From NCBI GenBank assembly GCA_035699745.1, contig DASSPH010000010.1, positions 62,001 to 126,000 of the forward strand: a stretch of DNA of 64,000 nt, read 5' to 3'. The notes below the pieces were generated by a model. It searched no databases. It was not told the DNA's origin and was given only the letters and a program-made list of their open reading frames with translations. Numbering within the stretch: position 1 is the first letter of the stretch; the number at the start of each line of letters is the position of its first letter. The DNA is from Vicinamibacterales bacterium (lineage in GTDB: Bacteria > Acidobacteriota > Vicinamibacteria > Vicinamibacterales > 2-12-FULL-66-21). The position numbers were made by a program, and so were the translations under genes. This document shows positions 23,314-62,381 of the stretch, one piece after another.

Positions 23314-23503
23314 TACGGCGGCGGCAGGGGCGCCGGTTCCGGCGGCGGGAAAAACCCTCAGACCGCAGGCCGCGTGGCGTCGCGGCTCGACAGTTTTGAG
23401 ATCGCGTGGCCCATCCGGGCCGGCGCGCGCCCGTTCACCCCCGGAAAGTGCCACTTCACTGGAATGTCCTTTTTACAGAAGTACTTAGCGCTAATCTACG
23501 GAC

Positions 23504-25600
23504 ATGCACAAGCCTATCAAGTACGTGGAGAAGGGTTTGACCGTGGCGGCGAAGGGCGCCTGGGCCGCGTTCGATGCCCTCAACAGCATCAAGCCGAATC
23601 CCGCGTTCACCCCCAAGTGGTCCGAGCTCCCGCTGCAGAAGTCGTGGCAGAAGGTGAAGCCGCCGCTCGGCTGGCCGCGTGAGACCGACTCGCTCTGTCC
23701 GAACTGCGTCCGCGAGGCGCGGCAGGCGATCGTCGACGGCAAGCAGGACTACAAGATCCTCCTCAACGAGAAGGTGGGCGAGATCAAGGCCGTCATCACC
23801 GAGAAGGACGGCAAGATCGTGATGATGAAGGACTGCCCGATCCACGGGCACTTCGAAGACGTCATGGCGATCGATCCGGCGTTCTTCAAGCATCTCGAAG
23901 AGTCGTTCCCGGGCAGCGACATCCGCTCGCACAACGACGAGAAGCTGCACAACCACGGCAGCTCGACGATCAAGTACGGCCGCGGCTCGGTCCTCACCAT
24001 CGACCTGACCAACCGCTGCAACATGATGTGCGACCCGTGCTTCATGGACGCCAACCAGGTCGGCTTCGTCCACGAGCTGTCGTGGGACGAGATCAAGACG
24101 ATGCTGGACAACGCCATCACGCTGAAGCCGAAGCGGCAGATGTCGGTCCAGTTCTCGGGCGGCGAGCCGACGATGTCGCCCTACTTCCTCGACGCGGTGC
24201 GCTACGCGAAGAAGGTCGGCTACAACTCGGTGCAGGCGGCGACCAACGGCATCGAGTTCGCCAAGAGCAAGGAGTTCGCGAGGGCGGCGTTCGAAGCCGG
24301 GCTGCGCTACGCCTACCTGCAGTTCGACGGCATCGGCAACGCCGCCAACTCGCATCGTCTCGTCGGCAACCTGTTCGACGTCAAGCTGCGCGCGATCGAG
24401 AACCTCTGGTCGGCCGGCGTCGACATCGTCCCGGTCATCACCATCGTCAACGGGATCAACAACGAGCAGGTCGGCCGCGTGATTCAGTTCGCGCTCGACA
24501 ACCCGAAGAAGATCAACTTCCTGTCGTTCCAGCCGGTGTCGTTCACCGGCCGCGACGAGGAAGTGACGCCGGAGCGCCGCGCGGCGCAGCGCTACACGCT
24601 GTCGCATCTGGCGCACGACGTGAAGAACCAGACCGGGCTCGGCGAGCCGGTGCGCGACTGGTTCCCGATCTCGTTCATGGGCACCTTCACCGACTGGGCG
24701 GACCTGGTGCACGGCCCGAGCGCCGAGTGGGGCAATCTCACGTGCGGCTGCCACCCGAACTGCGGCATCGGCATGGCGGTGATGATCGACAAGGAAACCA
24801 AGGAGGCCGTCCCGGTCACCAAGTTCCTGCATGCCGATCAGCTGGCCAGGGACCTGCAGCGGGTGAACGACGCGGCGCGCGGCCGCACGCTGTCGGTGCT
24901 CGGCATGGCGCTGGCCCTGGCGCGCAACTACGACCCGTTCCAGTCGCCGACGCACTTCAAGCTGACCGACCTGATGAAGAAGTTCGACAAGACGTTCGGC
25001 GCGACCAAGAAGGCGCACACCGGCGCCTACGGCCGCGTCGGCGGGGAGCGCACGATCGAGGACCAGGAGAAGCGGCGCGGCGATCGCTGGAACTTCCTGT
25101 TCATCGCCGGCATGTGGTTCCAGGATCTCTTCAACTACGACTTCCGGCGCACGGAGCGCTGCATCATTCCGTATGCGACGCAGGAAGGGGAGATCAGCTT
25201 CTGCGCGTACAACACCGGCATCGGCTGGCGGAACATCATCGAGAAGATGCACATGACCGCGACGCTGACCAAGTGGTACGAGGAGCACGGCCGGCACCAG
25301 ATCTATGCCGGCGGCAAGAAGGTCGAGCTGTCGAGCGCGGAGCACACGCTGGTGCTGGATCCGGAGGCGGTGGCGGCCGGCAAGCAGAAGGACCTCGACG
25401 AGCTGGGCATCGCCAAGAACGCGCGCGAGGAGAAGCTCCGCGCCAAGAAGCAGCAGCCGGGCGCCTTCGCGCCGGAAGACGAGAAGATGGCGGAGCTGTA
25501 CCGCCAGCACGTGCTGAAGGAGCAGCCGACGATCAAGATCGCCGGCCTCGGCGGCAGCAAGAAGCCGGTGCAGGACGTGGTGCACAAGAAGGCGGAATAG
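23504..25600 (+). CDS. Tes/MSS-like radical SAM protein (candidate membrane-spanning lipid synthase)
   Basis: Radical SAM enzyme of 698 residues. The core cluster motif CNMMCDPC (C172, C176, C179) and GGEP (219-222) are clear. Extra cysteine sites lie before and after: CPNC (65-68), C111 in DCPIHGHF, and CGCHPNC (414-420), so additional metal clusters are likely. This layout resembles archaeal tetraether synthase Tes and its bacterial membrane-spanning-lipid-synthase relatives, which join two acyl tails by a C-C bond. Acidobacteria are known for iso-diabolic acid lipids, which fits. A Lys-rich tail of about 100 residues follows the catalytic part. A strong terminator lies downstream. Function is inferred from motif layout. 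Confidence 0.75.
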   Translation: MHKPIKYVEKGLTVAAKGAWAAFDALNSIKPNPAFTPKWSELPLQKSWQKVKPPLGWPRETDSLCPNCVREARQAIVDGKQDYKILLNEKVGEIKAVITEKDGKIVMMKDCPIHGHFEDVMAIDPAFFKHLEESFPGSDIRSHNDEKLHNHGSSTIKYGRGSVLTIDLTNRCNMMCDPCFMDANQVGFVHELSWDEIKTMLDNAITLKPKRQMSVQFSGGEPTMSPYFLDAVRYAKKVGYNSVQAATNGIEFAKSKEFARAAFEAGLRYAYLQFDGIGNAANSHRLVGNLFDVKLRAIENLWSAGVDIVPVITIVNGINNEQVGRVIQFALDNPKKINFLSFQPVSFTGRDEEVTPERRAAQRYTLSHLAHDVKNQTGLGEPVRDWFPISFMGTFTDWADLVHGPSAEWGNLTCGCHPNCGIGMAVMIDKETKEAVPVTKFLHADQLARDLQRVNDAARGRTLSVLGMALALARNYDPFQSPTHFKLTDLMKKFDKTFGATKKAHTGAYGRVGGERTIEDQEKRRGDRWNFLFIAGMWFQDLFNYDFRRTERCIIPYATQEGEISFCAYNTGIGWRNIIEKMHMTATLTKWYEEHGRHQIYAGGKKVELSSAEHTLVLDPEAVAAGKQKDLDELGIAKNAREEKLRAKKQQPGAFAPEDEKMAELYRQHVLKEQPTIKIAGLGGSKKPVQDVVHKKAE

Positions 25601-25840: not shown

Positions 25841-25869
25841 TTGACAATCTACATATCTATATGTAGATT
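25841..25869 (+). promoter_or_regulatory. Promoter and palindromic operator of padR 1
   Basis: TTGACA (25841-25846), a 17-base spacer, then TAGATT (25864-25869). A perfect 10-bp inverted repeat AATCTACATA-TCTA-TATGTAGATT spans 25846-25869, covering the spacer and the -10. This is the expected place for PadR autorepression. The start codon follows 8 bases later, so the transcript would be leaderless or nearly so. Confidence 0.75.
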
Positions 25870-25877
25870 GCCATAGC

Positions 25878-28839: not shown

Positions 28840-28881
28840 GCGAGGGTCGAGGATCGAGGATCGGGCGGCTATGATGGACTG

Positions 28882-32789: not shown

Positions 32790-32836
32790 CCGTTCAGCGT
32801 CCGTGAGACCGTCACGGCCGGTGTAGGCTTACGCAC

Positions 32837-33922
32837 ATGCGACGCACCTGTGCCGTGCTCATCCTCGCGCTCACCGTCCTCTCGTTCCCGGCAGGCCGCG
32901 CCCAGGCCCCTCCGGCGCGCAGCGTCGTCGTGATCACGCTCGACGGCCTGCGGTGGCAGGAGATGTTCGGCGGCGCCGATCGCGATTACTTCAAGCGCAG
33001 CAAGCCCGAGGAGGTGCCCGCCGCCGAGACGCGCTTCTGGCGGCCAACGGCAGAGGAGCGGCGGGTCGCACTGATGCCATTCGTCTGGACGACGATCGCG
33101 GCGCGGGGGCAGATCCTCGGCGATCCCGCCAGAAAGAGCCGCGTGCACGTGACCAACGGGCTGTGGTTCTCGTACCCCGGCTACAACGAGATGTTCGCCG
33201 GCACCGCCGATTCGCGGATCGACAGCAACGACAAGATTCCCAATCCCAATGTCACCGTGCTCGAATGGCTGAACGGTCGGCCCGCGTTCAAGGGACGGGT
33301 CGCGGCCTTTGGTGCGTGGGACGTGCTGCCGTCGATCCTCAACACGGGGCGCAGCGGCATTCCGGTGGGCTCGGGCTTTACTCCCGTACCATCGCCGCGT
33401 ACCGAACGCGAGCGTGCGATCAACCAGCTCGCGACGGATCTGCCGTCCTACTGGAGCTACGGCCCGTTCGATGCGCCGATCGTCTACGCCGCGCTCGAGG
33501 CGATCCGCACCTCGAAGCCGCGCGTCCTCTACATCATGCTGGGGGAGGGAGACGAGTGGGCGCACGCCGGCCGCTACGACCTGTATCTCGACGCCACGTT
33601 CCGCGCCGATCGTTTCGTGCAGCGCGTGTGGGACACGCTGCAGTCGTTGCCCGAGTACAGAGACCGCACCACGCTGTTGCTGACCACGGACCACGGCCGC
33701 GGCGCCACACCCGCCGACTGGACCGATCACGGGCGCAAGGTGCCGGCCGCCGAGACCACCTGGATGGCGGCGATCGGCGCACCCGTGGCCCCGCTCGGCG
33801 TCCGCGAGGCCCTCACCGTCACGACCTCACAATTCGCCGCAACCATCGCCGCCGCCGTGGGCGAAGACTTCCGCTCCGCCGTCCCGGCAGCGGCCCCGGC
33901 CGTGCCCGAGATCATCAGGTGA
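32837..33922 (+). CDS. Secreted alkaline-phosphatase-superfamily hydrolase
   Basis: 361 residues with a signal peptide ending AGRAQA. Metal and active-site regions of the alkaline phosphatase/phosphodiesterase superfamily are visible: VITLDGLRWQEMFGG (Asp), NGLWFSYPGYNEM (candidate nucleophile), MLGEGDEWAHAGRYD, LTTDHGRG and WTDHG. The substrate could be a phosphate mono- or diester or sulfate. A TAGGCT hexamer lies 8 bases before the ATG. It converges with the next gene with only 2 bases between stops. Confidence 0.8.
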   Translation: MRRTCAVLILALTVLSFPAGRAQAPPARSVVVITLDGLRWQEMFGGADRDYFKRSKPEEVPAAETRFWRPTAEERRVALMPFVWTTIAARGQILGDPARKSRVHVTNGLWFSYPGYNEMFAGTADSRIDSNDKIPNPNVTVLEWLNGRPAFKGRVAAFGAWDVLPSILNTGRSGIPVGSGFTPVPSPRTERERAINQLATDLPSYWSYGPFDAPIVYAALEAIRTSKPRVLYIMLGEGDEWAHAGRYDLYLDATFRADRFVQRVWDTLQSLPEYRDRTTLLLTTDHGRGATPADWTDHGRKVPAAETTWMAAIGAPVAPLGVREALTVTTSQFAATIAAAVGEDFRSAVPAAAPAVPEIIR

Positions 33923-37359: not shown

Positions 37360-37443
37360 GGAAGGACGAATCGTAGCATTTCGACGGTTCCGGCCCGCGG
37401 CGTGCGGCGGCAGGCGGTGGTCAGGCGGCTGCGCCCCAGGCGA

Positions 37444-38472: not shown

Positions 38473-38495
38473 GCTTCCATTATCGCAGGGACGCC

Positions 38496-41157: not shown

Positions 41158-41490
41158 TTAGACGGTCAGCAGCACCCGGGAGATGGCAGCGGAGAAGCGC
41201 GCCCACTCCGCCGTGCTCGCGGCGAGACGCTTCCGGCCCGCCGGCGTGATCCGGTAGAACTTGGCCTTCCGGCCGAGCTCGGAGGTGCCCCAGCTCGCCT
41301 GAATCAGTCCGCGCTGTTCCATTCGATACAGCGCCGGATAGAGCGATCCGTCCTCCACCTGCAGCACGTCGCCGGTGCTGTCTTCCAGCCATCGCGCGAT
41401 CGCGTACCCGTGGCGCGGACCGCCGGCGACCGCTTTGAGGATCAGGCTCTCGAGCGTGCCGTGGAGGAGTTCGCTGGACGGAGCCGCCAT
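41158..41490 (-). CDS. PadR-family transcriptional regulator (module 2)
   Basis: 110 residues; LLHGTLESLILKAVAGGPRH and EDGSLYPALYRMEQRGLI are PadR hallmarks. It starts at ATG 41490 or the GTG directly before it (41493). The promoter lies immediately upstream, so the message has essentially no leader. It probably represses itself and the permease. Confidence 0.92.
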   Translation of the reverse strand: MAAPSSELLHGTLESLILKAVAGGPRHGYAIARWLEDSTGDVLQVEDGSLYPALYRMEQRGLIQASWGTSELGRKAKFYRITPAGRKRLAASTAEWARFSAAISRVLLTV

Positions 41491-41496
41491 CACCAG

Positions 41497-41526
41497 ATTA
41501 TCTGGGTGTCATGGCTAGATTGTCAA
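41497..41526 (-). promoter_or_regulatory. Promoter of padR 2
   Basis: On the minus strand TTGACA (41526-41521), an 18-base spacer, and GATAAT (41502-41497). The start codon follows within 3-6 bases. A palindrome CCAGAT-T-ATCTGG (41493-41505) overlaps the -10. The first 11 bases, TTGACAATCTA, are identical to those of the padR 1 promoter. Confidence 0.75.
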
Positions 41527-41916
41527 GGTATCGGGGGACGACGGTGTTCTTCCATACGGCACTGCGATGAACGCGGCGACGAACAGCATGCCGAGCAGCA
41601 GATCCGGCGCCGCCGTCATCGCGGCGTCGGTCGCGATCGCGCCGCGCGAGTAGAGCGCCGCCACGGTGGTGACGTGGCCGAGCTTCTCGACGATGGCGGG
41701 AATCATCAGCCACCGGTAGCGCGGGGGGTCGGAGCCGATGACGAGGAACGCCAGCTGCCACGCGAGCGCGACCGAGATGAACCCGTAGAAGAAGTGCGGG
41801 TAGTCGAGCGGCGGCGGCCACGGCTTGCCGGTGATGTCGACGAGGAAATACAGCGGGACGAGGACGAGGATCCCCCACACCCCCGCGCCGATGAAGACAA
41901 ACTTCGCGAACTTCAT
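41515..41916 (-). CDS. Small integral membrane protein, unknown function
   Basis: 133 residues with four predicted transmembrane helices (starting near 6, 43, 70 and 106). I do not recognise a characterised family. The gene's end overlaps the padR 2 promoter region, so transcription of one may influence the other. It is divergent from the M20 gene with 77 bases between. Confidence 0.65.
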   Translation of the reverse strand: MKFAKFVFIGAGVWGILVLVPLYFLVDITGKPWPPPLDYPHFFYGFISVALAWQLAFLVIGSDPPRYRWLMIPAIVEKLGHVTTVAALYSRGAIATDAAMTAAPDLLLGMLFVAAFIAVPYGRTPSSPDTLTI

Positions 41917-41980
41917 GGTCCCCTACCATAACTCCGTCGGGCGGCCTTCCATTCCGCCCCTGGCGGCGCGCGCCGATGGA

Positions 41981-41986
41981 TATAAT
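41981..41986 (+). promoter_or_regulatory. TATAAT -10 box before the M20 gene
   Basis: A perfect TATAAT lies 7 bases before the ATG at 41994, so the transcript would start at or next to the start codon. No clear -35 is seen. Confidence 0.5.
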
Positions 41987-41993
41987 TCCGGCG

Positions 41994-43622
41994 ATGAAAC
42001 GAGCTGGCTTGTTCGCCCTGATGATGACGGTGGCGGCGTTGGCCGTCCCGATGGCCCAGAACCCGGCGCCGCGTGCGGCCACTCCGAAGCTGGACGCCCT
42101 GAAGCAGGAGGCCGCGGCCGACGTCGAGCAGCGGGCCAGATTCGCGCAGGAGATGGTCGACCAGATCTTCAGCTACGGCGAGCTGGGATTCCAGGAGGTC
42201 GAGACCAACCGCTACCTGATCGACATCCTGAAGAAGAACGGGTTCGCGGTGACCGAAGGGGTCGCCGGCGTGCCGACGGCGTTCTGGGCCACGTGGGGAT
42301 CCGGCAAGCCGGTGATCGCGCTGGGCTCCGACATCGACGGCATTCCGCAGGCGTCGCAGAAGCCGGGCGTGGCGTATCACGATCCGCTGATCGAAGGGGC
42401 GCCCGGCCATGGCGAGGGGCACAACTCGGGGCAGGCGGTGAACATCACCGCGGCGATCGCGGTGAAGAAGATCATGGAGCGCGAGAAGCTCCCGGGCACG
42501 ATCCGCATCTGGCCCGGCACCGCCGAGGAGCTGGTCGGGACGAAGGCGTACTTCGTCCGCGCCGGCCTGTTCAAGGACGTCGACGTCGCGCTGTTCACGC
42601 ACGTGGACGACTCGCTCGACGTGTCGTGGGGCGCGCGCTCGGGCACCGGCCTGGTGTCGGTCCAGTACTCGTTCCAGGGAGAGACGGCGCACGCGGCGGG
42701 CTCTCCCTGGCGCGGCCGCAGCGCGCTCGACGCGGTGGAGCTGATGGACATCGGCTGGAATTTCCGCCGCGAGCACCTGCGCCTCAGCCACCGCTCGCAC
42801 AGCGTGATCGTCGACGGCGGCGATCAGCCGAACGTCGTCCCGCGGACCGCGTCGGTCTGGTACTACTTCCGCGAGATCGATTATCCGAACATCAAGCAGC
42901 TGTGGGAGACCGGCGACACGATGGCCAAGGCGGCGGCGATGATGGCGGGGGTCGAGCTGCTGCCGTCGAAGGTGCTCGGCAGCGCCTGGCCGCAGCACTT
43001 CAACCGCACGGTTGCGGAAACCACCTGGGCCAACATCCAGAAGGTCGGGATGCCGAAGTGGAGCGAGAACGATCAGCAGCTCGCGCGCGCGCTGCAGAAG
43101 GAGCTGAAGAACGCGCGAACCCCCGGGCTCAACGAGCGGATCGGCAACAGCCTCACCGGTCCGGTCCAGAACAACACCGGCGGCGGATCCGACGACATCG
43201 GCGACGTGTCGTGGAACGTGCCGACGGTGACGCTGCGCTTCCCCGCGAACATCCCCGGCCTCCCCGGCCACAACTGGGCGAACGCGATCTCGATGGCGAC
43301 GCCGATCGCGCACAAGGGGGTCGTCGCCGGCGCCAAGGTCCAGGCGATGACGATGCTCGATCTGGTGTCGCGCCCCGAGCTGGTCGAGCAGGCGTGGAAG
43401 TACTTCCGCGAAGTGCAGACGAAGGAGACGAAGTACGAACCCCTGCTGCGCCCGCAGGACCAGCCCGCGATCTGGCTGAACAAGGCCACGATGGAGCGCT
43501 ATCGGCCGGAGATGAAGAAGTATTACTACGACCCCTCGCGCTTCCCGAGCTATCTCGATCAGCTCGGAATCAAGTACCCGACAGTGAAGAATCCCGGCGC
43601 CCAACTCCCGACGCCCGACTGA
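41994..43622 (+). CDS. Secreted M20-family amidohydrolase (AbgB-like)
   Basis: 542 residues with a signal peptide ending AVPMAQNP. The two-metal M20 core shows GSDIDGIP, GEGHNSG, GTAEELVG and the C-terminal PGHNWANA region. The dimerisation insert (YSFQGETAHAAGSPWRGRSALDAV) is that of the AbgB amidohydrolases, which cleave p-aminobenzoyl-glutamate and related amides. The TATAAT upstream favours ATG 41994 over the ATG at 41976, which would precede the transcript. Its last codons run into the repeat element before hisS. Confidence 0.88.
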   Translation: MKRAGLFALMMTVAALAVPMAQNPAPRAATPKLDALKQEAAADVEQRARFAQEMVDQIFSYGELGFQEVETNRYLIDILKKNGFAVTEGVAGVPTAFWATWGSGKPVIALGSDIDGIPQASQKPGVAYHDPLIEGAPGHGEGHNSGQAVNITAAIAVKKIMEREKLPGTIRIWPGTAEELVGTKAYFVRAGLFKDVDVALFTHVDDSLDVSWGARSGTGLVSVQYSFQGETAHAAGSPWRGRSALDAVELMDIGWNFRREHLRLSHRSHSVIVDGGDQPNVVPRTASVWYYFREIDYPNIKQLWETGDTMAKAAAMMAGVELLPSKVLGSAWPQHFNRTVAETTWANIQKVGMPKWSENDQQLARALQKELKNARTPGLNERIGNSLTGPVQNNTGGGSDDIGDVSWNVPTVTLRFPANIPGLPGHNWANAISMATPIAHKGVVAGAKVQAMTMLDLVSRPELVEQAWKYFREVQTKETKYEPLLRPQDQPAIWLNKATMERYRPEMKKYYYDPSRFPSYLDQLGIKYPTVKNPGAQLPTPD

Positions 43623-43746: not shown

Positions 43747-43774
43747 GCCGTTGACGGGGCAGTAAACTGTAAGG

Positions 43775-46863: not shown

Positions 46864-46890
46864 CAGCCATGCTAGGATCGGCGCAGTAAC

Positions 46891-53128: not shown

Positions 53129-53170
53129 CTTCGGATCCGCTCAATCGCATGGTAAATTGAGCGGATCTCT

Positions 53171-54541
53171 ATGGCGCAGCGCAAGATTGACGTCGTCCTC
53201 GACTCGGTCCGAAGGCTCATACGCCTCGGCGCGACGGCGAATCTCGTCAACCTGCTCCACAAGCAGCACCCCGCGGACCTCGCCCAGGTCTTCGCCGAAC
53301 TGGGGGAGAAAGACCGCGCCACCTCGTTCGCGCTGCTGCTCGAGAGAAACAGCAAGCTGGCGATGGAAGCGCTCAGCGAGCTCGGCCCCGAGGGGGGCGC
53401 CGCGCTGCTCGCCGATCGGTCCGCCGAAGAGATCGCCCGGCTCCTGCACGACCTCCCGTCGGACGACGCCGCGGCGATCATCGACAACCTGCCGGAACCG
53501 CTCTCCGCCGCCGTCCTCGAGCTGATCGGCAAGCGTCCGGGCGACGAAGTCGGCGAGCTGCTCGAGTACGAAGAGCAGACCGCCGGCCGCATCATGAACC
53601 CGAAAGTCTTCGCGCTTTCGGAAGACATGACCGCCGGTGAAGCCATCACCACGCTGCAGGGCGCGCGCGACGTCGAGATGGTGTTCTACCTCTACGTCGT
53701 CGACGGCCGCCGCCACCTGGTCGGCGTGATCTCCCTGCGGCGGCTGCTCCTGGTGCCGCCGTCGACGCCGCTCAAGCGGATCATGACGACCGACCTGACG
53801 AGCGTCAGGACGGACACCGACCAGGAAGAAGTCGCGCGCCTCGTCGCCTCCTACAACCTGCTGGCGCTGCCGGTCGTCGACGAGGAGAACAAGCTGGTCG
53901 GGGTCGTCACGGTCGACGACGTCATCGACGTCATCAAGGACGAGGCGACCGAGGACGTCTACCGGCTGGCCGGTGTCGCGGGGGACGACCGTGTGTTCTC
54001 CACCGCGGCGGAGTCGCTGCGCAAGCGGGTGCCGTGGCTCGAGGTCAACCTCGTGACCGCGTTCATCGCCGCGTCGGTCGTGGCGCTGTTCGAAGGGGCG
54101 ATCGATTCGCTGCCGGTGCTGGCGGTGTTCATGCCGGTTGTCGCCGGCATGGGCGGCAACGCCGCGACGCAGACGCTGACGGTGATCGTCCGCGGCATCG
54201 CGCTCGGCGAGTTGACCTGGGCGAACTCCCGCAAGGCGCTGTTCAAGGAGGCGGCGGTCGGCATCGGCAACGGCGTGGCGTGCGGCGTGGTCGGGTGGCT
54301 GGTGGTCTGGGCGTGGAAAGGGGACTTCTGGCTCGGCGGCATCCTCTGCGCGGCGATGATCATCAACATGTTCGTCGCGTCGACTGCCGGCACGCTGATC
54401 CCGCTGGCGCTCCGCGCCATGAAAGTGGACCCCGCGCTCGCGTCGTCGGTGTTCATCACCACGTTGACCGACGTGTTCGGGTTCGCCTCGTGGCTCGGGC
54501 TGAGCACCGTGTTCCTCAAGTTCCTCCATCCCGCGGGATAG
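53171..54541 (+). CDS. mgtE: Magnesium transporter MgtE
   Basis: 456 residues: an N-terminal helical superhelix domain (1-130), a CBS pair (about 135-260, IMNPKVFALSEDMTAGEA; VVDEENKLVGVVTVDDVIDVI), a plug helix and five transmembrane helices with the conserved pore stretch PVVAGMGGNAATQTLT. It is a Mg2+ channel gated by intracellular Mg2+. TAAATT lies 12 bases before the ATG. Confidence 0.95.
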   Translation: MAQRKIDVVLDSVRRLIRLGATANLVNLLHKQHPADLAQVFAELGEKDRATSFALLLERNSKLAMEALSELGPEGGAALLADRSAEEIARLLHDLPSDDAAAIIDNLPEPLSAAVLELIGKRPGDEVGELLEYEEQTAGRIMNPKVFALSEDMTAGEAITTLQGARDVEMVFYLYVVDGRRHLVGVISLRRLLLVPPSTPLKRIMTTDLTSVRTDTDQEEVARLVASYNLLALPVVDEENKLVGVVTVDDVIDVIKDEATEDVYRLAGVAGDDRVFSTAAESLRKRVPWLEVNLVTAFIAASVVALFEGAIDSLPVLAVFMPVVAGMGGNAATQTLTVIVRGIALGELTWANSRKALFKEAAVGIGNGVACGVVGWLVVWAWKGDFWLGGILCAAMIINMFVASTAGTLIPLALRAMKVDPALASSVFITTLTDVFGFASWLGLSTVFLKFLHPAG

Positions 54542-54559
54542 AATCGTTCCCGGTCCCCG

Positions 54560-55376: not shown

Positions 55377-55382
55377 TATAAT
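55377..55382 (+). promoter_or_regulatory. TATAAT -10 box before glyQ
   Basis: A perfect TATAAT ends 11 bases before the GTG start at 55394, implying a leader of only a few bases. It overlaps the competing TTG at 55382, which therefore cannot be the start. Confidence 0.5.
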
Positions 55383-61412: not shown

Positions 61413-62381
61413 TTGATCCGGATCCTCGCGCACGCGAACGGGACCACGAGCCCGGCGGATCGGGTCGATCCGGCGTGGCTCGCCCCCGGGAGCGGCGTGA
61501 AGATCTGGGTCGATCTGCTGAATCCGACCCCCGAGGAGGGGCAGAGCATCCTCGTCGACCTGTTCCACTTCCACGAACTGGCGGTCGAGGATGCGCTGAG
61601 CGCGCTGCAGTATCCGAAGGTCGAGTCGTACGGCGAGTACCTGTATCTGATCCTGCACCGGATCGACTTCGAAGGCTCCGAGCACTGCTTCAAGACCCAC
61701 GACGTCGATTTCTTTCTCGGCCCCAATTACCTGGTCACCATCCACACCGGCGATTCGCGCTCGATTCAGCACGTCGCCGACGTCTGCGGCCGCAATCCCC
61801 GCGCCCTGGGGGAGGGGGTCGCGGCGCTGATGCACCGCATCATCGACGCCATGGTCGACAACTACCGGCCGGAGATCGACGAGCTGAACGAGCGGCTCGA
61901 CGACCTCGAGGCGCAGGTGTTCGAGCCCAGCACGCCGACCCTGACCCGCGACATCCTCGAGTTCAAGAAGGACGTCTCGTCGCTGCGCCGCGTCGTCCTG
62001 CCGCAGCGCGACGTGATCGGCCGTCTGGCCCGGCGCGAGTTCTCGCTGATCGACGAAGCGATCGCCTACCGCCTGCGCGACATCCACGACGCGCTGGTGC
62101 GGCTGGCCGACGAGTCGATCCAGTTCCAGGACCGCATCACCAGCCTGCTCGACGCCAATCTCGCCATCGTCTCGAACCAGTTGAACAGCGTGATGAAGGT
62201 GCTCACCATCATCGCGACGCTGTTCATGCCGCTCACGGTGATCACCGGCATGTGGGGCATGAACGTGCCGCTGCCGCATCTGCCCGGCGGCGAGCAGCTG
62301 CAGTTCTGGTGGGTCGCGGCCTTGATGATCGGGCTCTCGGTCGGGATGCTCGCGTACTTCCGCAGGCGCGGCTGGATCTAG
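61413..62381 (+). CDS. corA: Magnesium/cobalt transporter CorA
   Basis: 322 residues. A large cytoplasmic alpha/beta and helical domain leads to two C-terminal transmembrane helices, the first ending in the selectivity motif GMWGMN. A basic tail (RRRGWI) closes the protein. The TTG start lies 4 bases after the ppdK stop. It is the second Mg2+ transporter within 9 kb, after mgtE. Confidence 0.94.
   Translation: MIRILAHANGTTSPADRVDPAWLAPGSGVKIWVDLLNPTPEEGQSILVDLFHFHELAVEDALSALQYPKVESYGEYLYLILHRIDFEGSEHCFKTHDVDFFLGPNYLVTIHTGDSRSIQHVADVCGRNPRALGEGVAALMHRIIDAMVDNYRPEIDELNERLDDLEAQVFEPSTPTLTRDILEFKKDVSSLRRVVLPQRDVIGRLARREFSLIDEAIAYRLRDIHDALVRLADESIQFQDRITSLLDANLAIVSNQLNSVMKVLTIIATLFMPLTVITGMWGMNVPLPHLPGGEQLQFWWVAALMIGLSVGMLAYFRRRGWI

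Follow-up and report, generated by a model that had tools for sequence, protein, structure and literature searches.

The 64,000-nucleotide stretch analysed here (the window; positions 62,001 to 126,000 of contig DASSPH010000010.1, from a Vicinamibacterales bacterium of the phylum Acidobacteriota) carries hisS, glyQ, bshB1, phoH and recO, a moaA-like and an mgtE-like gene, two padR genes, and an amidohydrolase gene (TIGR01891) that we take to be of the M20 type. A preliminary description, made from the letters alone, had noted -10-like hexamers shortly before 11 start codons, likened them to the TANNNT motif of leaderless genes in Deinococcus, and proposed widespread leaderless or short-leader transcription. 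Direct reading of the window finds all 11 hexamers ahead of their genes. The gene names, which rest on hidden Markov model matches, agree as well, except that the gene at 32837 is unnamed and has a weak match to a metalloenzyme superfamily. TATAAT occurs twice in the window, both strands counted together, and both copies precede listed starts (the M20-type gene and glyQ). As set out below, hexamers that end 6 to 10 bases ahead of a start codon (we call this distance the gap) are very probably -10 boxes of sigma-70-type promoters, whose transcripts are predicted to open with the start codon itself or only a few bases ahead of it.

The window lies within a genome of 6.30 Mb in 110 contigs. Its HisS is 74% identical to HisS of a gp6 Acidobacteria metagenome-assembled genome, and the next-best matches are acidobacterial, which marks the genome as that of an acidobacterium, probably of the class Vicinamibacteria. 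Our main sample comprised 1.25 Mb in 64 pieces (20% of the genome, window included); it is non-random, consisting of contig beginnings and some interior stretches. Genes were called by codon usage and start-codon type, and upstream sequence was never used, which leaves the calls blind to the signal. This yielded 1,055 genes, 872 of them with a usable neighbour; the other 183 had no upstream neighbour in the piece, lay near a piece end, were shorter than 240 bases or scored low. Starts were classed as divergent/far (divergent, or at least 60 bases from the same-strand neighbour), intermediate (25-59 bases) or operon-internal (<25 bases). The main score counted TANNNT motifs whose first T falls at positions -18 to -12 relative to the start codon, and the chance level came from 200 dinucleotide shuffles per gene that keep local composition. 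The GATAAT before padR 2 and moaA falls outside TANNNT, one mismatch from TATAAT.

TANNNT preceded 81 of the 459 divergent/far starts, compared with 18.2 +/- 4.2 in shuffles (maximum of the 200, 30), and 20 of the 90 intermediate starts, compared with 2.3; among operon-internal starts it was found at 21 of 323, where shuffles gave 5.7. The excess is a property of the genome beyond the window: with the window excluded, the first two classes pooled gave 93/520 vs 19.0 (maximum of 200 shuffles, 31), and decoy ATGs gave none, whether inside genes (1/449, 4.5 expected) or upstream and out of frame (4/135, 3.0 expected). Taking the first ATG of each open reading frame as the start gave 65/388 vs 14.7. 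Within the window itself, the blind starts with TANNNT numbered 6 of 25 divergent/far, 2 of 4 intermediate and 0 of 22 operon-internal. The position of the motif is sharp. Among the 459 divergent/far genes the first T fell at -12 in 23, at -13 in 17, at -14 in 16 and at -15 in 11, followed by -16 (6), -17 (8) and -18 (4); at -11 there was one, and farther upstream the background averaged about 2.8 per position. The peak thus stands at gap 6 and extends to gap 9; a single base closer to the start codon, at gap 5, the counts fall off a cliff. Hexamers that differ from TATAAT at no more than two positions behaved alike at the 549 divergent/far and intermediate starts: 32 at -12, 25 at -13, 20 at -14 and 8 at -11. 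This is the sharp peak that the preliminary description had called for, and the flat distribution that it had named as refuting was not seen. Its word "widespread" holds only in part: the excess over chance amounts to 95.8 of 872 starts (11%), or 80.5 of the 549 non-operon starts (15%), and thus to no majority of genes. The 11% is a lower bound because some called starts are wrong.

The same profile appears when gene calls are left out altogether. It is well established that -10 boxes lie at -12 to -7 relative to the transcript start. With a gap of 6 the transcript would therefore begin with the A of ATG, and with a gap of 5 it would begin past that A, so that leaderless starts predict a step between these two distances. 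In the 1.25-Mb sample, counts of TANNNT before ATG were 21 and 11 at gaps 4 and 5; 47, 44, 37 and 39 at gaps 6 to 9; and 32, 23 and 22 at gaps 10 to 12, over a baseline of 18.5 (mean of gaps 31-60). Across the whole genome, gap 6 before ATG had 253 sites and gap 5 had 79. The signal before GTG was weaker, with a step at gap 6 only (24, 43, 32, 23, 37 and 38 at gaps 5 to 10; baseline 29.4), and CTG/ACG showed no step (69 and 63 at gaps 5 and 6; baseline 80.5).

The signal is also specific to the motif. When all 64 patterns of the form XYNNNZ were scored with the first letter at -15 to -12 of the 549 starts (window included), TANNNT was found 82 times vs 12.3 expected (z 20); the runner-up had a z of 3.1. 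Genes with the first T at -14 to -12 (the strict TA-led set, 81 genes of all classes) had G at the second base before the hexamer in 54%, and the middle positions of the hexamer were low in information. Shine-Dalgarno 5-mers preceded 7.4% of this set, which is the chance level (6.7% in shuffles). They exceeded it in the remaining genes, at 18.5% for divergent/far (7.1%), 12.9% for intermediate (8.2%) and 22.2% for operon-internal starts (8.6%).

A negative and a positive control were drawn from better-known genomes. Their records leave out end-cut coding genes, one very short E. coli gene, three MP1 transposase genes, RNA genes and pseudogenes. E. coli MG1655, scored by annotated starts only because our caller is tuned to GC-rich DNA, was negative (5 of 80 non-operon starts, 9.5 expected). 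The annotated non-operon starts of the D. radiodurans plasmid MP1 were positive (18 of 72 vs 3.8), with a peak at -12/-13 that matches the one described above, so the proposed likeness to the Deinococcus motif stands; starts from our own caller still recovered the MP1 peak (13/73 vs 2.9). Four relatives were sampled at 200 kb each, G014 and G050 from the same order and G108 and G136 from the same phylum, and the excess was clear in G014 (18/90 vs 2.9) and G108 (13/86 vs 2.8).

Other sources of such a signal can be weighed against these data. Two of the stop codons begin with TA, and in-frame stops can sit close to starts, so the hexamers might be remnants of TAA or TAG, either from upstream genes or in frame before the start. 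This is barely credible: a large excess is seen in divergent and far-spaced genes, where no same-strand gene lies close upstream; it runs over -12, -13, -14 and -15 without a three-base rhythm, and it needs the T at the sixth position (TANNNA, TANNNC and TANNNG are all outside the best eight of the 64 patterns). Regions preceding genes are usually AT-richer than genes, and in GC-rich DNA such a dip could yield TANNNT by chance. This explanation may still apply to single listed cases at gaps 11-15. At genome scale it is largely refuted, and we regard it as highly improbable: shuffles that keep local composition gave 19.0 where 93 were observed, other AT patterns were not comparably enriched (ATNNNA, 26 vs 19.2), and composition would not produce a cliff of a single base.

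The motif also occupies the usual place of a Shine-Dalgarno site and might therefore be a translation signal, a variant ribosome-binding site. This too has very little probability. The excess lies mainly at expected transcript heads (101 of 549 starts vs about 20.5) and is smaller at the operon-internal starts. Moreover, in D. radiodurans, according to a 2025 Deinococcus-Thermus study (PMC12340547), swapping the motif for a Shine-Dalgarno sequence abolished fluorescence, and other replacements lowered RNA. The strongest competitor, which we consider unlikely yet a good deal more plausible than the others, accepts the promoters and holds that most transcripts carry leaders of a few bases and not none. 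On the one hand, counts before ATG are raised as far as gap 10, and the counts at -16 and -17 are above background, which would correspond to leaders no longer than about 5 bases. On the other hand, the commonest gap is 6, exactly the distance that a leaderless start requires, and the excess declines at gaps 11-12.

Several observations weigh against reading the hexamers as promoters of leaderless or nearly leaderless transcripts. The operon-internal excess requires internal promoters or wrong operon calls. Our start caller is imperfect, matching 77 of the 114 annotated starts of MP1. No shared -35 box was clearly enriched in the strict TA-led set, where 7 of 81 genes had one within two mismatches and the control had 18 of 324. 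Start codons in this set (55 ATG, 23 GTG and 3 TTG) resemble those of other genes; among the 39 gap-6 genes there were 25 ATG, 14 GTG and no TTG, a zero that is uninformative because TTG makes up about 4% overall. Two of the relatives gave less than a clear excess: G136 was suggestive (12/100 vs 4.7, shuffle maximum 12), and G050 was not significant (4/90 vs 1.7). In the smaller samples of 150-200 kb the step before ATG was unclear, with counts at gaps 5 and 6 of 7 and 7 in G014, 34 and 35 in G136, 9 and 7 in G050, 10 and 16 in MP1, and 3 and 9 in G108. Finally, the reversed pattern, counted over the whole genome, scored no lower, with 222 sites at gap 6 and 257 at gap 5. We judge this control ill-matched, as its composition differs, with AT for TA and GTA for ATG, but it lends the case no help; because of the mismatch, we rely on the step of a single base instead of the reversed pattern.

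With these points set against the counts, leaderless or nearly leaderless transcription remains the reading that we prefer. The gap 6-10 hexamers would serve as -10 boxes for the housekeeping (sigma-70-type) polymerase, and the first nucleotide transcribed would be either the initial base of the start codon or one that lies a few bases ahead of it. Such mRNAs would lack the space that a Shine-Dalgarno site needs, and translation would presumably start when a ribosome already carrying initiator tRNA recognises the 5'-terminal start codon.

Individual cases in the window (Table 1) differ in strength. The listed hexamers at gaps 6-8 are good cases. As the excess nears baseline from gap 11-12, glyQ counts as borderline, and the individual support for phoH, mgtE and recO is weak; these three are the least supported of the listed cases, followed by glyQ and by moaA, which has GATAAT and a TTG start. 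The TAGGCT had been placed at 32823 with a gap of 8, one base off in each value. Before the M20-type gene and hisS, the codon-based caller picked a later start than the one that the hexamer precedes. Three further hexamers are absent from the earlier list. One precedes the gene at 41515-41916 (minus strand), which encodes 133 amino acids, has no Pfam or NCBIfam match and is the divergent partner of the M20-type gene. Another precedes the gene at 23504-25600, which encodes a radical SAM protein with an HMPTM-type zinc ribbon.

Table 1. Hexamers and inverted repeats in the window, and compact divergent pairs from the genome sample (pair coordinates refer to the locus named)
Feature	Position	Strand	Gap and start codon, or distance between start codons	Gene	Remark
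TAATCT	23492..23497	+	6, ATG 23504	radical SAM gene	not in earlier list
Inverted repeat	25842..25873	.		padR 1	15-nt arms, 93% complementary, 2-nt loop; spans -35 to -10
TAGATT	25864..25869	+	8, ATG 25878	padR 1 (padR_acidobact)	
TATGAT	28870..28875	+	6, GTG 28882	bshB1 (TIGR04001)	
TAGGCT	32824..32829	+	7, ATG 32837	weak metalloenzyme-superfamily match	
TACGAT	37370..37375	-	10, ATG 37359	oxidoreductase	not in earlier list
GATAAT	38479..38484	-	6, TTG 38472	moaA-like	TTG start otherwise unsupported
GATAAT	41497..41502	-	6, ATG 41490 or 3, GTG 41493	padR 2 (padR_acidobact, TIGR03433)	
TATGGT	41925..41930	-	8, ATG 41916	gene without family match	not in earlier list
TATAAT	41981..41986	+	7, ATG 41994	M20-type amidohydrolase (TIGR01891)	
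TAAACT	43763..43768	+	6, ATG 43775	hisS (TIGR00442)	
TAGGAT	46873..46878	+	12, TTG 46891	phoH	weak
Inverted repeat	53134-53167			mgtE-like	perfect 12-bp arms, 10-base loop; directly before gene, covers putative -10
TAAATT	53153..53158	+	12, ATG 53171	mgtE	weak; overlaps perfect inverted repeat
TAGAAT	54539..54544	+	15, ATG 54560	recO	weak
TATAAT	55377..55382	+	11, GTG 55394	glyQ	borderline; predicted leader about 5 bases
Pair L004	6626-6647		20 bp		overlapping opposite-strand hexamers TAGTCTA
Pair L010	12426-12451		24 bp		two hexamers with common central TA
Pair L116	14559-14585		25 bp		two hexamers with common central TA
Pair L118	4304-4332		27 bp		two hexamers with common central TA

Both padR genes of the window belong to padR_acidobact (TIGR03433) and adjoin ADOP permeases (TIGR03434); the genome has 26 copies above the cut-off (L144-L169). 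Each of the two has a full -35/-10 layout, TTGACA-17-TAGATT-8-ATG for padR 1 and TTGACA-18-GATAAT-6-ATG, at leaderless spacing, for padR 2. The inverted repeat over the padR 1 promoter is probably a PadR operator, and binding of PadR to it would provide autorepression. As raw tallies without a chance level, TANNNT lies at a leaderless distance from one or more candidate ATG or GTG codons in 7 of the 26 copies, and GATAAT occurs in one; a Shine-Dalgarno 4-mer is present in 7 (in L146 together with TANNNT) and TTGAC in 15. Among these 15, TTGAC stands 36-38 bases before a start in 5 of the 10 copies without a Shine-Dalgarno match and in 0 of the 5 with one, numbers too few for a firm claim. To judge from these upstream letters, the start mode (leaderless or Shine-Dalgarno) may change between padR paralogues. 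Many padR_acidobact genes have a TTGAC box, with an inverted repeat spanning the promoter. The repeat before the mgtE-like gene may be the operator of a regulator; it is unique in the genome, which rules out a dispersed element.

The counts at compact divergent pairs also support the preferred reading. The sample contains 132 divergent pairs, with distances given as base pairs between the start codons. At 15-40 bp, 9 of 10 pairs had TANNNT before one or both of the genes and 4 had it before both, where shuffles gave 1.7 for one side only and 0.2 for both. At 41-100 bp the counts were 19 of 36 and 3 (5.2 expected for one side, 0.2 for both), at >100 bp 25 of 82 and 2, and at <15 bp 2 of 4 and 0. 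In the four double pairs of the 15-40 bp class (Table 1) the hexamers of the two strands overlap. Transcript starts 7 bases after each hexamer would put the two start sites of L004 at a spacing of 18 bases and those of L010, L116 and L118 at 23, leaving leaders of 0-4 bases. The sharing of TA is partly built in because TA is its own complement, and the 18- and 23-base spacings are not independent evidence, as they follow from the overlap. The four sampled relatives had no double pair at 15-40 bp; they had only two pairs in this range, both in G014 and both with TANNNT on one side. We consider it about an even call that some intergenic stretches of 20-27 bp are promoter only, one symmetric -10 box giving rise to two (near-)leaderless divergent mRNAs. 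Polymerase bound one way on such a box would exclude polymerase bound the other way, which would tie the two genes together in a switch that has neither a leader nor a ribosome site of its own.

Comparison of single sites among relatives supports no claim of conservation. For hisS, upstream letters were compared in 28 relatives and in 32 of 80 named loci that were taken as acidobacterial; some of these are redundant, with identical upstream letters (L024 and G004, L030 and G016, L033 and G039, L053 and G029). In many relatives of the same order the letters before hisS resemble the end of another gene, which makes the site not comparable. By eye, leaderless-looking hexamers at gaps 7-9 precede hisS in G006, L027, L028, L032, L034, L044 and L082. 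For bshB1, no conserved site was found in the seven relatives set beside the window copy.

These gene starts are of a known kind, in a phylum for which they had been predicted. Zheng et al. (2011; PMC3160421) described TANNNT some 12 bases ahead of the start codon, above shuffles and distinct from Shine-Dalgarno-led genes; all three of their acidobacterial genomes had such TA-led genes (mean 13.3%, range 9.7-19.4%), and Deinococcus-Thermus averaged 39.4%. Our genes agree in the peak of the first T at -12/-13/-14, in the excess over shuffles, in having no Shine-Dalgarno signal beyond chance, and in their share of about 11%. That survey covered three acidobacterial genomes; the closest named HisS to the one here is from a gp6 metagenome-assembled genome. 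The 2025 study (PMC12340547) placed TANNNT 6-7 bases before the open reading frame, as an alternative to a GGAG ribosome site, in close to a third of D. radiodurans genes, and its mutations showed the motif to act as a promoter. The gap modes of 6 and 7 found here and the same profile at annotated MP1 starts are alike; the share of genes is smaller, and promoter function here is predicted from sequence. Among the matches listed for literature on leaderless genes in Acidobacteria/Acidobacteriota, there was no transcript-start study of the phylum.

For the compact pairs, the bidirectional promoters of Warman, Grainger and others (PMC12825309) have shared symmetric -10 elements and three common start spacings. 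The overlapping -10 boxes of our four pairs predict two of these (18 bases in one, 23 in three). In contrast to those promoters, the start codons here coincide with the predicted start sites or lie no more than a few bases from them, and both messages would be (near-)leaderless. The csoR-cueA divergon of Bradyrhizobium liaoningense (PMC5057107) likewise has partly overlapping -10 boxes; there csoR is leaderless by rapid amplification of cDNA ends (RACE) and cueA has a 42-base leader, whereas both sides of our pairs appear (near-)leaderless.

Thus, a substantial minority of genes in this acidobacterium is probably leaderless. For the annotation of starts, the hexamer marks the likely true start, as for the M20-type gene and hisS, and for genes that are leaderless, regulation through a leader is ruled out. 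GC-rich genomes can be tested for leaderless genes in a simple way, from the position of TANNNT in the sequence, and the compact pairs offer a clean setting for how one -10 box divides polymerase between two genes.

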